Shown here piece after piece: positions 38,081 through 63,980 of a DNA stretch of 64,000 nucleotides. The translations under genes were made by a program, and so were the position numbers. Each line of letters begins with the position of its first letter. Within the stretch, counting starts at the first letter, position 1. The notes beneath the pieces are model-generated. The model ran no database searches and was not told the origin of the DNA. It saw nothing but the letters and a program-made list of their open reading frames with translations. The stretch lies in contig ONJJ01000003.1 of assembly GCA_900318115.1 (NCBI GenBank), forward strand, positions 1-64,000, read 5' to 3'. This DNA is from an uncultured Prevotellaceae bacterium. Its GTDB lineage: Bacteria > Bacteroidota > Bacteroidia > Bacteroidales > Bacteroidaceae.

Positions 38081-38130
38081 GCCTGACCGCGGATTACGCA
38101 GGTATTCTCGGCTTTTTATAACGCCCGATA

Positions 38131-38196
38131 CGACCGCTCGTGTTGACTGTCACGACCGCTCGTGTTGGCATTCACGACCGCTCGTGTTTGTCCGCA
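38131..38196 (+). repeat. three tandem copies of a 22-bp unit with a hairpin core
   Basis: Units at 38131-38152, 38153-38174 and 38175-38196 begin CGACCGCTCGTGTT and diverge at the end. The last two copies carry CACGA-CCGC-TCGTG, a short perfect dyad, across the unit junction. The count of three and length of 22 equal those of the unrelated array at 3998-4063. Confidence 0.85.
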
Positions 38197-38278
38197 TCTT
38201 TCCTCTGAAACAACGGAGTGGACGCCCTCGGCCGAAGGACGCATAATTCGTTGTTTGAGATTGCAAAGGGGGAAGAGT

Positions 38279-38315
38279 GGCGGAAAGGGTGGAGAGGGGC
38301 GGAAAGGGTGGAGAG
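38279..38315 (+). repeat. two copies of an 18-bp purine-rich unit
   Basis: GGCGGAAAGGGTGGAGAG occurs at 38279-38296 and 38298-38315 in the ftsZ upstream region. Nothing else is recognisable between 38200 and the promoter. Confidence 0.6.
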
Positions 38316-38366
38316 GGAGCGGAAATATGTTGCAGGAAATGTTTTTGGAAAAAAGTGACGGTGATA

Positions 38367-38505: not shown

Positions 38506-39942
38506 ATGGAACAAAAAGGACAAGAATGGCAGGACGGCGGAATCCAATTCCTCAACGTCCCGAAGGACACGTCGGTGAATATCATTAAGGTCATCGGAGT
38601 CGGTGGCGGCGGCTGCAATGCCGTTCGCAATATGTTTCTCGAAGGTATCACGAACGTGACGTTCGCTGTGATGAACACGGACAGCCAACAGTTGGCAAAG
38701 AGCCCTGTGCCGGTGAAACTGCAGCTGGGGGCGGACGGTCTGGGTGCCGGCGGCAAGCCTGAACGTGGTCTCCAGGAGGCTCAGAACACGGCGGAACAGA
38801 TTCGTGCGCTGCTCAGCGACGGTACGAAGATGGTATTCGTCACGGCCAGTATGGGCGGTGGTACGGGCACGGGTGCAGCTCCGTTCGTGGCAAAAATAGC
38901 CAAGGAAATGGGGCTGCTGACGATAGGTATCGTGACGATTCCTTTCGCCTTCGAAGGACGGAGGAAGATTATCATGGCTCTGCGCGGTGTGGAGGAGATG
39001 CGAAAGAATGTGGACGCGCTGCTGATCATCAACAACGAGAGTCTGGGACGCGGCGACAAAGAGGAGGAACGTGTTCCGATGAAGACAGAGTACAAGCGGG
39101 CAGACAATATCCTGAAGGATGCTGCCAAGAGTATTTCTGAACTGATTACCATCCACTCCGACGGCGATATTAACCTTGACTTCTGTGACGTGGACACCAC
39201 CATGCGCAACGGAGGTGGAGCCATCATGGCGATGGGCACGGCCAGCGGGGAGCATCGTGTGGAGAGAGCGATCTTGAATGCGCTGGACTCGCCGTTGCTC
39301 TATGGCAACGACGTGGATCGCGCCAAGCGCATTCTCTTTGCAATCTACGCCAGCGACGAAGCTCCTCTGTATAATTTCGAGATGCATGAGGTGCAGGAGT
39401 TCATGGATCGCTTGGATATCGACATCGAGCTCATCTGGGGTACGTCCACGGACAACACGCTGGGGCAGGAAGTGAAGGTCATCATCCTGGCTACGGGCAT
39501 AGAGGATGACTTGCACGGGACGCAGCTGGCACGGACATCGCAGGAGAGGGATGATGATTTCTACCTGGAATTGATGGGGAGATTGTACAGGAAGAAAGGG
39601 GAGACTGGAGAGGGGAGGACAAAGGCAGAGGCAGAGGCAGAGGCGGCGAATACGCCGCCCACCAAACCGCAGGCCATGGAGGAGAAGGCAGAGGAGGCGA
39701 ATACGCCGCACGCCGAACCGCAGGCCGGGGAGGAGAAGGCAGAGGAGCCCACAGAACCGCAGGCTGAGGAGGGGAAGGCGGAGGCGGCGAATACGCCGCC
39801 CACCAAACCGCAGGCCGGGGAGGAGGAAAAGACTCAAGCTGAAGAGGGGAAGAAAGGGGCGCCTGAACTGTCGAAGTGGAAAAAGATGCTTGAAGAACTC
39901 TGGGTGTTCCTGGCTAAAATGACGAACCCGGAAACACACTAA
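38506..39942 (+). CDS. ftsZ: FtsZ family cell-division GTPase, divergent, repeat-rich tail
   Basis: 478 residues. The tubulin-like core has IIKVIGVGGGGCNAVRNM, the GTP-binding signature MGGGTGTGAAPFVA and an intact T7 loop (INLDFCDVDTT, NxDxxD), so it should bind GTP and polymerise. Compared with the usual Bacteroidales FtsZ it has a charged stretch around GRGDKEEERVPMK, and from residue 379 the tail is made of repeats such as ANTPPTKPQAGEE encoded by a hairpin repeat. The end (WKKMLEELWVFLAKM) is an amphipathic helix rather than a familiar C-terminal peptide. No ftsA, ftsQ, mur genes or GatB/YqeY-like gene lie nearby, so it may be a second ftsZ or the only one in an unusual place. Confidence 0.85.
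   Translation: MEQKGQEWQDGGIQFLNVPKDTSVNIIKVIGVGGGGCNAVRNMFLEGITNVTFAVMNTDSQQLAKSPVPVKLQLGADGLGAGGKPERGLQEAQNTAEQIRALLSDGTKMVFVTASMGGGTGTGAAPFVAKIAKEMGLLTIGIVTIPFAFEGRRKIIMALRGVEEMRKNVDALLIINNESLGRGDKEEERVPMKTEYKRADNILKDAAKSISELITIHSDGDINLDFCDVDTTMRNGGGAIMAMGTASGEHRVERAILNALDSPLLYGNDVDRAKRILFAIYASDEAPLYNFEMHEVQEFMDRLDIDIELIWGTSTDNTLGQEVKVIILATGIEDDLHGTQLARTSQERDDDFYLELMGRLYRKKGETGEGRTKAEAEAEAANTPPTKPQAMEEKAEEANTPHAEPQAGEEKAEEPTEPQAEEGKAEAANTPPTKPQAGEEEKTQAEEGKKGAPELSKWKKMLEELWVFLAKMTNPETH
39642..39826 (+). repeat. intragenic hairpin repeat array in ftsZ tail
   Basis: Units start with a stem-loop and continue CACCAAACCGCAGGCC and a GGGGAGGAG-type tail. Copy 1: GGCGGCG-AATA-CGCCGCC at 39642-39659. 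Copy 2: GGCG-AATA-CGCC at 39696-39707. Copy 3 lacks the hairpin (39747-39775). Copy 4: GGCGGCG-AATA-CGCCGCC at 39783-39800, tail to 39826. The reading frame is kept in every copy. The same loop and flank occur inverted in rimO. Confidence 0.85.
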
Positions 39943-54631: not shown

Positions 54632-54689
54632 CACCCGCAAAACGGAAAGCACCTCCTCTGGCGATGCTTCCGAAGCCGAAACGAAAGTT

Positions 54690-54762
54690 GCGTCCTTAGC
54701 TCAGTTGGTAGAGCAATTGACTCTTAATCAATGGGTCCAGGGTTCGAGCCCCTGAGGGCGTA
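54690..54762 (+). tRNA. tRNA-Lys (CTT), copy 1
   Basis: 73 bases. Acceptor stem GCGTCCT/AGGGCGT with two G-T pairs, discriminator A, D arm GCTC-GAGC, anticodon arm ATTGA-CTCTTAA-TCAAT with anticodon CTT, T arm CAGGG-TTCGAGC-CCCTG. The CCA end is not encoded. Confidence 0.95.
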
Positions 54763-54790
54763 CTTTCAACAAGGCTGGAGCACAAAAGAT

Positions 54791-54863
54791 GCGTCCTTAG
54801 CTCAGTTGGTAGAGCAATTGACTCTTAATCAATGGGTCCAGGGTTCGAGCCCCTGAGGGCGTA
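54791..54863 (+). tRNA. tRNA-Lys (CTT), copy 2
   Basis: Identical in sequence to the copy at 54690-54762, 28 bases downstream, so it is a recent duplication or is kept identical by gene conversion. Both probably share the promoter at 54600-54631. Confidence 0.95.
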
Positions 54864-54948
54864 CAGAAGGAGACGACAACCGTCATTGGATGCCGTCTCT
54901 TTTGTTTTTCTACGAAGTAAAATACACCTTATTATATTATATAGAGTA

Positions 54949-60742: not shown

Positions 60743-60907
60743 AGTCATTAGTCATTAGTCATTAGTCATTAAGGAATCTGAAAAGGGATTATTTAGTATA
60801 AAGTATATATAATATAATATATTATATATACTTTGAGCACTATTTGAGGAAACCCGAAAAGCTAAATGACTAATGACTAATGACTAAATGACTAATGACT
60901 AAATGAC
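60743..60907. repeat. inverted heptamer arrays around an AT palindrome
   Basis: Four exact AGTCATT copies at 60743-60770 face about six AATGACT copies at 60865-60907. Between them lies a perfect palindrome at 60800-60834: AAAGTATATATAATAT, loop AAT, and its reverse complement. The whole could fold into one long nested hairpin of about 165 bases. It sits in the gap of some 890 bases between DUF4295 and ftsY. Confidence 0.85.
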
Positions 60908-62435: not shown

Positions 62436-63980
62436 ATGAAAAAAAATCATGTTGACATCCTGACAATGGGCTGCTCCAAGAACCTCGTGGACAGCGAGCG
62501 CCTGATGGCTCAATTGCGTCATGCCGGTTTCACCGTCTCTCACGACCCTGAAGTCTGCACGGGTGACATCTGCGTCATCAACACCTGCGGTTTCATTGGC
62601 GATGCCAAGGAAGAGAGCATCAACATGATTCTCCAGCAAGGTCTGCGCAAGCAAGTCTCGCCCTCCTCCTCGTCCTCTTCGTACTCCTCCCCTTCGTCTC
62701 CTTCCCCTTCATCCTCTTCCCCCTCGTCTTCCTCCTCCCCCCTGGCGTCAAGGTTGGGTGAGGTGCGTATTCGCGCCGGCATCTTCCCCCTCCGCCGCCT
62801 CTATGTAATGGGTTGTCTTTCTCAGCGTTATCTCAGTGACTTGCAGGCTGAAATACCTGAAGTCGATGGCTGGTATGGCAAGTTTGACTGGCCCCGCCTT
62901 CTCACAGACCTCGGCCACGCCTGGGACGACCACCTCACTCCCTCCCGCTTCCTCACCACCCCTTCTCATTACGCCTATGTGAAGATCTCCGAAGGCTGCG
63001 ACCGCCGTTGTTCCTACTGCGCCATCCCCCTCATTACTGGCCGCCACCGCAGCCGTCCCATGGAGGATATTCTTGACGAAGTGCGGCAGCTTGTGGCACT
63101 CGGTGTCAAGGAGTTCAATGTCATCGCCCAGGAACTCACCTACTACGGCGTTGATCTCTACCACCGCCGTGCCATCGCCGAACTCATCGACCGCATGGCC
63201 GACATCCCCGGCGTCTGCTGGATTCGTCTCCACTACGCCTATCCGACGGACTTCCCTTGGGAACTCCTTCCCGTCATCAACCGGCACCCGAACATTTGCC
63301 GTTACCTCGACATTGCCCTCCAGCATATTGCCGACCCCGTGTTGACCGCTATGCGTCGTCATATCACCAGCGAGCAGACCTATGACTTCATCCGGCGTCT
63401 TCGCGCAGAAGTGCCTGGCATTCATATCCGTACCACCCTCATGGTCGGTCATCCTGGTGAGGACGAGGAAGCCTTCCAGCAACTGCTGGACTTCACCCGT
63501 TGGGCGCGTTTCGAGCGTATGGGCGCCTTTGCCTATAGCGAAGAAGAAGGCACGCACAGCGCCGAAGCCTTCTCCGATGACATCCCAGATGACGTCAAGC
63601 AAGCACGCCTCTCCCGCCTCATGCGCCTTCAGCAACGCATCTCTGCCGAGGTGCAGGAAGCCAAGGTCGGCACCACCCAGCGCGTTGTCATCGACCGCAT
63701 CGAAGGCGACTACTATGTCGGTCGTACTCAGTTCGATTCCCCCGAAGTAGATCCCGAGGTCCTCATCCCCGTCGCCTCCGCCTCCCCCTCTGCCACTCCC
63801 CCCTCAACCACTCCCCCCCAGTCCGACACTTCCTGCTCCCAGGCGTCAGCGTTGGGTGCCGCGCATATTTGCGCGGATTCCCCCTCCCTCTCCATCGGCC
63901 ACTTCTACGACGTCCACATCACTTCTGCCGATGACTTTGACCTCTTCGCCACACCCCTCTCAAACACCCCCTCCGCATGA
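62436..63980 (+). CDS. rimO: ribosomal protein S12 methylthiotransferase RimO
   Basis: 514 residues from the ATG at 62436 (MKKNHVDILTMGCSKNLVDS); relatives have about 430. The N-terminal Fe-S cysteines are in MGCSKN, NTCGF and VMGCLSQRY; the radical SAM motif is CDRRCSYCAIP; the TRAM domain is at the end. The extra length comes from two in-frame insertions: residues 73-118 (a long Ser/Pro run followed by LASRLGEVRIRAGIFP) and 442-488 (Pro/Ser-rich with CSQASALGAAHICADSP) inside the TRAM domain. Both are encoded by the same hairpin repeat as in ftsZ. The enzyme adds a methylthio group to Asp in S12. Confidence 0.95.
   Translation: MKKNHVDILTMGCSKNLVDSERLMAQLRHAGFTVSHDPEVCTGDICVINTCGFIGDAKEESINMILQQGLRKQVSPSSSSSSYSSPSSPSPSSSSPSSSSSPLASRLGEVRIRAGIFPLRRLYVMGCLSQRYLSDLQAEIPEVDGWYGKFDWPRLLTDLGHAWDDHLTPSRFLTTPSHYAYVKISEGCDRRCSYCAIPLITGRHRSRPMEDILDEVRQLVALGVKEFNVIAQELTYYGVDLYHRRAIAELIDRMADIPGVCWIRLHYAYPTDFPWELLPVINRHPNICRYLDIALQHIADPVLTAMRRHITSEQTYDFIRRLRAEVPGIHIRTTLMVGHPGEDEEAFQQLLDFTRWARFERMGAFAYSEEEGTHSAEAFSDDIPDDVKQARLSRLMRLQQRISAEVQEAKVGTTQRVVIDRIEGDYYVGRTQFDSPEVDPEVLIPVASASPSATPPSTTPPQSDTSCSQASALGAAHICADSPSLSIGHFYDVHITSADDFDLFATPLSNTPSA
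62743..62790 (-). repeat. intragenic hairpin repeat, first copy in rimO
   Basis: TGGCGTCAAGGTTGGGTG (62743-62760) followed by the stem-loop GGTGCG-TATT-CGCGCC (62762-62777, one G-T pair) and a TTCCCCCTCC tail. A C/T-rich tract (62656-62742) precedes it. In reverse complement it matches the ftsZ unit order: hairpin with AATA loop, CACC-type flank, G-rich tail. Confidence 0.8.
63841..63885 (-). repeat. intragenic hairpin repeat, second copy in rimO
   Basis: AGGCGTCAGCGTTGGGTG (63841-63858) followed by the perfect stem-loop CCGCGCA-TATT-TGCGCGG (63859-63876) and TTCCCCCTCC-type tail. The flank is almost identical to the first copy while the stem sequence differs. Confidence 0.85.

Follow-up and report, generated by a model that had tools for sequence, protein, structure and literature searches.

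The window analysed here is a stretch of 64,000 nucleotides from an uncultured Prevotellaceae bacterium (assembly GCA_900318115.1, contig ONJJ01000003.1), in which two unrelated genes, an ftsZ paralog and rimO, carry the same short hairpin element, R1, in opposite orientations (Table 1). R1 has a 26-nt core, made up of the head GTTGGGTG, a 7-bp stem and a TATT loop, as seen in a gap-free alignment of 33 copies. It recurs throughout the genome to which the window belongs (G000; 3.33 Mb in 74 contigs, 87% complete), where it is frequently preceded, on its head side, by tandem repeats.

R1 in ftsZ and rimO

Table 1. Features of the ftsZ and rimO loci (positions in the window)
Feature	Position	Strand	Evidence and remarks
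ftsZ paralog, 478 aa	38506..39942	+	TIGR00065 301.8 bits (cut-off 295.2); PF00091, PF12327; C-terminal tail holds the R1 array
Tandem array, 4 units, spacings 51, 51, 39	39635..39825	+	hairpin in 3/4 units
R1 copy 1 in ftsZ	39642..39667	- (antisense)	GTTTGGTG head, 7-bp stem, TATT loop; covariance model 45.3 bits
R1 copy 2 in ftsZ, degenerate, 5/7 pairs	39693..39718	-	covariance model 37.2 bits
R1 copy 3 in ftsZ	39783..39808	-	covariance model 45.3 bits
rimO with two in-frame insertions	62436..63980	+	TIGR01125 396.9 bits (cut-off 356.95; run from 62442); ortholog alignments
rimO insertion 1, approximate extent	62658..62789	+	Ser/Pro-coding tandem repeat, then R1; ortholog alignments
C/T-rich tandem repeat, head side of rimO R1 copy 1	62663..62741	+	Tandem Repeats Finder (TRF); 120-nt score 13
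R1 copy 1 in rimO, GTTGGGTG-AGGTGCG-TATT-CGCGCCG	62753..62778	+ (sense)	covariance model 38.3 bits
rimO insertion 2 near C-terminus, approximate extent	63776..63886	+	ortholog alignments
Tandem repeat, head side of rimO R1 copy 2	63784..63818	+	TRF; 120-nt score 14
R1 copy 2 in rimO, GTTGGGTG-CCGCGCA-TATT-TGCGCGG	63851..63876	+ (sense)	covariance model 42.2 bits

The ftsZ gene in the window is one of two in the genome, the other being a 446-aa frame at G000:C39:29361-30380. Two FtsZ places are likewise present in the relatives G031, G032, G033, G037, G040, G041 and G003. The array in its carboxy-terminal tail has a 51-nt period and one 39-nt unit, all spacings being multiples of 3. As the first-pass annotation of this DNA had noted, three units contain the hairpin and one lacks it; the latter lies near position 39747. 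Two of the hairpins are perfect (39642-39659 and 39783-39800) and the third (39693-39710, GGAGGCG-AATA-CGCCGCA) is degenerate. A search for the 18-nt hairpin with up to three mismatches gave five strand matches at these three places, against 0.11 expected from shuffles. On the minus strand, the sequence of the units is GTTTGGTG-GGCGGCG-TATT-CGCCGCC, which is the order of head, stem and TATT loop that the annotation had recognised in rimO, and the register is identical. The resemblance between the two genes, on opposite strands, is thus genuine. The three copies look like the local tandem amplification of one element and not like separate insertions, because the ftsZ ortholog of RUG11694 has a single recognised R1 copy; on its head side, that copy has an unrelated repeat rich in Gly, Glu and Ala. 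Head-to-tail REP arrays in an arrangement like that of ftsZ, with a period of 41-43 nt, are located in L198 (2599-2790, RUG13587) and L060 (1375-1534, G010). Upstream of ftsZ, two unrelated tandem repeats without R1 (38130-38188 and 38265-38325, with 22-nt and 19-nt units) are separated by a possible inverted repeat, AAACAACG...CGTTGTTT.

In rimO, both R1 copies are located within in-frame insertions and each follows a tandem repeat. In a first alignment with ten same-genus orthologs, none of the ten has an insertion at site 1, and their extra residues at site 2 number a few at most.

A search of the whole of G000 with the pattern GTTKGGTGNNGNGNRTATTNGC, allowing up to two mismatches, gave 41 matches, against one for the reversed control. 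The stem cells of R1 are paired in 94.0% of 217 cases, compared to 74.5% in shuffles, with 41 double-change cells against 11.9, a covariation score of 0.518 against 0.177 and G-U in only two of the 217 cells. High pairing, covariation and scarce G-U together suggest that the stem behaves as a DNA hairpin. Against this, two of the five covariation measures are no higher than in shuffles; pairs changed on both sides number 5, compared to 4.1 shuffled, and pair types 9, compared to 10.5. An RNA regulatory element was considered and rejected, given the little G-U, the occurrence in both orientations and an Rfam scan of positions 38000-64000 that gave just two tRNAs. An intrinsic terminator was also rejected, no T run following the hairpins among the sites listed.

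Dispersal of R1 and the RAYT genes that carry it

A covariance model of R1 was used to scan 31 genomes, as the annotation had suggested: G000, 18 of the same genus and 12 from other families. Up to 150 first-look candidates were scored per genome, so the counts are lower bounds: at least 44 matches in G000, at least 48 in G018 and at least 13 in G010. With one weak match in G001 (E 0.03), R1 is thus present in four of the 31 genomes, the model having no match in the other 15 of the same genus or in the 12 from other families. The compared genomes are, judging by their titles, metagenome-assembled genomes (MAGs), with partial or unstated completeness (88% for G010, 80% for G018). R1 is therefore dispersed and not restricted to ftsZ and rimO, as the annotation had allowed that it might be. 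Scanned with an exact pattern, the GTDB species genomes yielded 63 stretches in 14 MAGs (counted from titles), which are named Bacteroidales, Bacteroidaceae, Prevotellaceae or Prevotella sp., are all uncultured and, where a source is stated, come from the rumen or abomasum of goat or water buffalo. Among viral contigs, two stretches match R1, neither of them with a RAYT (see below). The IMG/VR contig L329 has two R1 copies and also an open reading frame (ORF) which starts like what we take to be a DnaG-type primase.

For G000, G018 and G010 together, 103 copies were analysed, or 97 sites once six array copies are removed. Two model hits (L091 and L123), antisense inside a conserved domain that is presumably of the S1 type, were judged false positives; they were left out of the cleaned repeat set, the period test and part of the minority-strand test described below, and are still counted in the first-pass repeat test, the position table and the strand, orientation and phase counts. 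Fifty of the 97 sites are intragenic, meaning inside a heuristically called ORF of at least 120 aa (28 of 40 in G000, 21 of 46 in G018, 1 of 11 in G010). We judge the coding share of such genomes to be higher than this, and the excess in coding genes over chance that had been envisaged is not shown. The intragenic copies are in sense orientation in 43 cases and antisense in seven, two of these being probable false matches. The proposal of one family residing in unrelated genes in either orientation with the frame kept has thus held, with antisense as the minority. The sense copies use all three frames, 25 of the 43 being in phase 2. Like REPs (repetitive extragenic palindromic sequences), R1 is an imperfect palindrome of 20-40 nt with a conserved stem-loop and has many copies dispersed in the genome. 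REPs are mainly extragenic, which R1 is in G010; in G018 it is divided about evenly and in G000 it is mainly intragenic.

The same hairpin is found inside genes for probable REP-associated tyrosine transposases (RAYTs), the kind of enzyme that the annotation had proposed to look for. A profile made from five proteins with Y1-transposase motifs (A5) matches in 20 of the 31 genomes, recovering proteins most of which are missed when PF01797 alone is used as detector (none is then found in G018). These proteins contain MPDH[FLIV]H and DNP motifs, which are separated by a low-complexity stretch, and a conserved carboxy-terminal domain. Four of them match NF047646 (REP-associated tyrosine transposase) with E-values from 8.3e-8 to 1.1e-10, and a RAYT of another clade, C40, matches it with 6.7e-14. 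For 52 RAYT loci, which take in some but not all of the profile matches, the ORF and 400-nt flanks were searched for hairpins. R1-like hairpins, two to three each, are present at ten of these loci, from ten genomes, and at none of the other 42; RGIG3507 has an additional copy with four of seven pairs. In nine of the ten ORFs, a minus copy is followed, in gene orientation, by a plus copy, so that the heads point inward and the pair brackets a hypervariable linker; the exception, the RAYT of RUI084, has two plus copies. When translated, the copies give SPQICGAP- and VGCSAYSR-like stretches, which flank the linker in the region from the HUH motif to the Tyr motif. Both stretches are kept in most of the ten proteins, the second being the more conserved. 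The motifs of these RAYTs are DH[FLIV]H, LW[EQ] in most cases, and Y[VIL]xDNP, and their carboxy-terminal domain has about 160 residues. In a tree of 49 RAYTs, the ten R1 carriers are on one side of a branch with support 100/99, none of 500 label shuffles giving a value as low, and they still group when the linker columns are removed.

The RAYT matches, the presence of R1 inside RAYT genes and the grouping in the tree have displaced our earlier reading of R1 as a transposase-free class similar to the palindromic elements of Rickettsia, and R1 is likely to be a REP belonging to a clade of RAYTs (Y1/HUH). The likeness to the Rickettsia elements, noted in the annotation, stands as far as the effect on genes is concerned and fails in that R1 is shorter and has a cognate transposase. 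Several observations count against the assignment to a RAYT clade. All the NF047646 matches are below the 80-bit cut-off, and the two R1-clade RAYTs searched against Pfam gave no match. It was the R1 pattern itself that led to nine of the ten R1-clade loci; in six of these nine, at least one further hairpin lies outside the capture pattern, and the tenth RAYT, G000:C42:68735, was captured via the protein profile. R1 occurs in G010 and G018, where the searches turned up no RAYT of the R1 clade; two G018 RAYT fragments that the tree does not include are most similar to other clades. Some other RAYT clades have related hairpins in similar places, with different heads and loops, for instance GTTGNGTATG with TATCA or TATTA loops; at some of these loci the hairpin pairs are unclear. 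Lastly, the head of R1 ends in GGTG and not in the foot GT[AG]G or CGTC (tabulated by position for 40 and 46 sites). According to the part of the literature available to us, the GT[AG]G foot is not universal, atypical REP structures being described for TnpAREP subclass 2.6 (PMC6006769). A further RAYT in G000, at a contig end (L048, 1560-2601, G000:C26; 71.6 bits to NF047646, stretch partly N), is flanked by repeats with GTAGGGGCATAC...GTATGCCC that resemble canonical GTAG REPs. A short Y1 transposase is present in G000:C53 and in G013:C4, G013 being without an R1 match.

A second family, R2, consists of hairpins of the type CTGTTNNCGGCGG-TTCGT-CCGCCG and is found at 74 places in six genomes (28 in G018, 13 in G031, 12 in G032, 11 in G000, 10 in G042 and none in G041), the reversed control giving none in all six. 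The exact C40-type hairpin has two copies in G000, and the wider R2 pattern finds more. The C40-clade RAYT ORFs of G000, G031 (RUG11694) and G018 contain two R2 copies each. R2 thus pairs with a RAYT clade separate from that of R1, and the cognate REP lies in the transposase gene in both families, in ten genes for R1 and in three for R2. In a second set of rimO orthologs, site 1 contains R1 in G000, R2 in G032 and G042, a different hairpin in G031 and an insertion without a recognised hairpin in G041; no insertion is present in G018, G003, G010, G034, G035 and G036. The same RimO linker is struck by distinct REP families in distinct species. The hairpins with TTTT and TTCA loops in the rimO of G031 were considered as a third dispersed family and rejected, only those two copies being found in six genomes. 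Overall, related rumen Bacteroidales contain several RAYT clades, each with a distinguishable hairpin, and the copy number varies widely.

The carboxy-terminal domain of the RAYTs shows a weak resemblance to the Rossmann domain of DprA, which is suggestive only. When a profile of the domain was searched against the PDB, the top three matches were DprA entries (E 0.021-0.023, 47 positions). Alignment to DprA with hhalign gave a score of 28.3 over 100 columns, with a probability of just 18%; the best of 100 column shuffles scored 23.55, the reversed profile 16.6 and two unrelated families 15.7-18.2. Neither single-sequence searches nor the full-length profile matched DprA, and Pfam, NCBIfam and PHROGs lend no support to the likeness.

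Tandem repeats on the head side

Tandem repeats, called at a score of at least 16 within 120 nt, are distributed unequally around R1. In a first pass over 95 of the 97 sites (two were too short), repeats were found on the head side of 49 and on the other side of two, the background rate being about 2.2% of 2113 control segments. In a cleaned set of 90 sites (101, minus nine with another R1 within 150 nt and two short ones), the head side has repeats at 47 and the opposite side at two, with discordant sites divided 46 to 1. R2 has them on the same side, at 14 of 33 sites compared to 2 of 33 (30 loci fetched of the 74 places). The repeats are site-specific and change between species while R1 stays. 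When the flanks of 12 ortholog pairs are compared (hand-picked among the blast matches listed, with one locus used twice; pairs from a single species, copies in RAYTs and partial matches were excluded), the mean identity is 0.61 on the head (5') side and 0.79 on the other (3') side (p 0.012), the head side being the more divergent in nine of the 12. Between L018 and L221, the head side differs by a single clean 30-bp tandem duplication. Repeat periods are a multiple of 3 at all 20 sites in ORFs and at 9 of 29 outside.

The repeats follow the head and not the gene, since the five antisense intragenic R1 copies checked keep them on the head side (5/5, compared to 1/5 on the other). Of the two strands, the one that is C-rich in the region holds 86 of 95 R1 sites and 28 of 33 R2 sites; the eight R1 copies on the G-rich strand, with four head-side and two other-side repeats, are too few to decide. 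The runs of plus-strand genes in the window have, by eye, negative GC skew, and the strand bias may be identical to a tendency of R1 to run in the direction of the genes, to which ftsZ is the exception.

Certain results speak against a general coupling of R1 and head-side repeats. At 43 of the 90 sites no head-side repeat is detectable, and both rimO copies score below the threshold. In other MAGs, outside the RAYT contigs, the asymmetry is weaker (12 compared to 3 of 27 sites, being 37 minus seven dropped and three short; discordant 10 to 1, p 0.012; before array removal 19 compared to 7 of 38, including RUI002, which is near-identical to G010), and some of these sites are orthologous to sites of the first set, so the two sets are not fully independent. 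Three of the 12 ortholog pairs show the reverse direction. The period-3 excess in ORFs is partly expected, because other periods tend to break the ORF, and short-read MAGs may misrepresent repeats, which are hard to assemble.

A possible mechanism starts from the known chemistry of these enzymes. TnpAREP proteins of two known groups are described as cleaving single-stranded DNA at C|T, and one of them at C|A as well, 5' or 3' of the REP, and HUH enzymes as leaving a 5' phosphate on the Tyr and a free 3'-OH that could prime synthesis or rejoin, as far as the text available to us goes (PMC8266576). The RAYT would fold and bind the single-stranded R1 hairpin, read the head as a guide and nick the DNA on the head side, in the course of moving or copying REPs. 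The 3'-OH freed beside the head may slip and be re-extended before rejoining, which would duplicate upstream sequence in tandem on that side; RAYT nicking would thereby make the head-side repeats. Insertions and duplications that preserve the frame would be retained by selection in dispensable linkers, and RimO and this FtsZ would thereby gain new low-complexity linkers. The carboxy-terminal domain may also take part. We tentatively propose the RAYT-REP pair as a generator of local tandem duplications by programmed head-side nicks, which seeds fast-evolving in-frame linkers in host proteins and in the transposase itself, with the fused DprA-like domain handling the freed single strand; taken as a whole, this is possible, and our confidence in it is less than even.

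Other explanations differ in how they account for the side of the repeats. REPs might be mobile via RAYTs and the repeats unrelated to the transposase: REPs would favour, as insertion sites, low-complexity linkers and intergenic repeats that were present beforehand, and these would expand by ordinary polymerase slippage. Linkers tolerate insertions and repeats alike, most of the 21 TRF rows in the window are away from R1, and the sites without repeats and the hairpin-less insertion in the rimO linker of G041 agree with this. It predicts repeats on both sides, however, where 46 sites have them 5' only and one 3' only. It would need REPs to insert far more often at the 3' edge of repeats than elsewhere in them, and the shared side of R1 and R2 and the more divergent head flanks of orthologous elements argue against it; we consider it rather doubtful. 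It is improbable that the hairpin itself stalls replication and makes the neighbouring sequence slip without any enzyme, the side being set by the direction of replication or transcription. The C-rich strand bias of both families and the predominance of sense copies are in its favour, since repeats on one side could result from a process tied to strand orientation. The hairpin itself, though, is almost symmetric, and the explanation is weakened by the antisense copies that keep their repeats on the head side.

That a reverse-transcriptase system, such as a diversity-generating retroelement (DGR) or one like a retron, writes the repeats, with the hairpin as target mark, is very improbable. Variable sequence next to a conserved head and a short hairpin is reminiscent of the layout of a DGR target, and an RVT_1 gene (G000:C42:150174-150794, 149 bits) is located about 2.2 kb from an R1 copy. 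Yet G010, with its 13 copies, has no RVT_1 match, G018, with 48, has one weak match (1.7e-6), and several RVT_1-bearing genomes are without an R1 match. Membership of the DGRs was rejected, as RVT_1 and R1 are uncorrelated across genomes and do not co-occur as reverse transcriptase and target marks should; moreover, the repeats look locally templated and not copied from a template repeat. There is practically no chance that the ftsZ and rimO regions, both of them low-complexity tandem repeats, resemble each other through independent simple-repeat expansion of GC-rich linkers, in view of the 26-nt core with its 41 matches to one in the control, the covariation and the R1 copies in ten RAYT genes.

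Should the proposal of head-side nicking by the RAYT be true, a mobile element acts as a diversifier of protein linkers and is not an inert repeat. The one-sided repeats allow a test of where, relative to the REP, processing takes place, and they hint at how a bacterial transposase could reshape protein linkers while leaving genes intact.

Elsewhere in the window, a tRNA gene is tandemly duplicated at 54684-54864 (101-nt period, 98% match, two tRNA hits of equal score). At 60743-60907, two arrays of one 7-mer in inverted orientation (AGTCATT / AATGACT) surround an AT-rich region, upstream of an ORF that we take to be ftsY-like.

Comparison with known REP/RAYT systems

To our knowledge, the benefit of RAYTs to their hosts is unclear. 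With clade-specific hairpins, variable copy number and one linker holding different REPs, the genomes compared here make REP insertion directly comparable across species, in a field where the spread of REPs is described as poorly understood in the text at hand (PMC8266576).

The annotation had put R1 forward as a candidate for an undescribed system. Pairs of REP and RAYT, intragenic REPs and REPs inside RAYT genes have already been published, so R1 is best read as a variant, a REP of the known REP/RAYT kind, and not as an unprecedented class. Judging from the published descriptions available to us, the likeness to REP/RAYT (TnpAREP) "REPtrons" includes a short hairpin, dispersed and strand-specific, whose 5' head is conserved and unpaired, a cognate Y1 HUH transposase gene that holds the REP, and REP families that differ by RAYT clade (PMC6006769, PMC8266576). 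The R1 system differs from them in the end of the head GTTGGGTG (GGTG, not GT[AG]G), the many intragenic copies, the weakly DprA-like carboxy-terminal domain of about 160 residues and the one-sided tandem repeats.

Within this group, R1 can be compared to TnpAREP subclass 2.4 (RAYT group 4; Quentin et al. 2018, PMC6006769). In the description at our disposal, this subclass has in-frame REPs within tnpAREP between HUH and Tyr, a trait called unique to it, short DNA repeats with a length-variable region at the REP place, and carriers among the Bacteroidetes. The in-frame REPs between HUH and Y are present in the R1-clade RAYTs. The motifs and the carboxy-terminus are different: DH[FLIV]H is found for NH[IFV]H, Y[VI]xDNP for YIxNNP and mostly LW[EQ] for WQ, the foot is not GT[AG]G, and there is a long carboxy-terminal domain, none being listed for subclass 2.4 in that description (PMC6006769).

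The intragenic GTAG/CGTC REPs (Di Nocera et al. 2013) resemble R1 in being located in frame within unrelated proteins, where they are argued to occupy tolerant linkers or loops; the foot of R1 is neither of the two, and one-sided, site-specific repeats are not described in the text of that paper available to us (PMC3733652). The Rickettsia palindromic elements (RPE), compared by description only, are also in frame within genes; the core of R1, at 26 nt, is shorter than RPE-1, and R1 has a cognate transposase (PMC3733652). One-sided, fast-changing repeats and a DprA-like RAYT fusion are undescribed in the portions of the open-licence literature searched, and may have been reported elsewhere. 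Within the same literature, the R1 head, these RAYT clades, their carboxy-terminal domain and the striking of one linker by different REP families are, like the repeats, apparently new.

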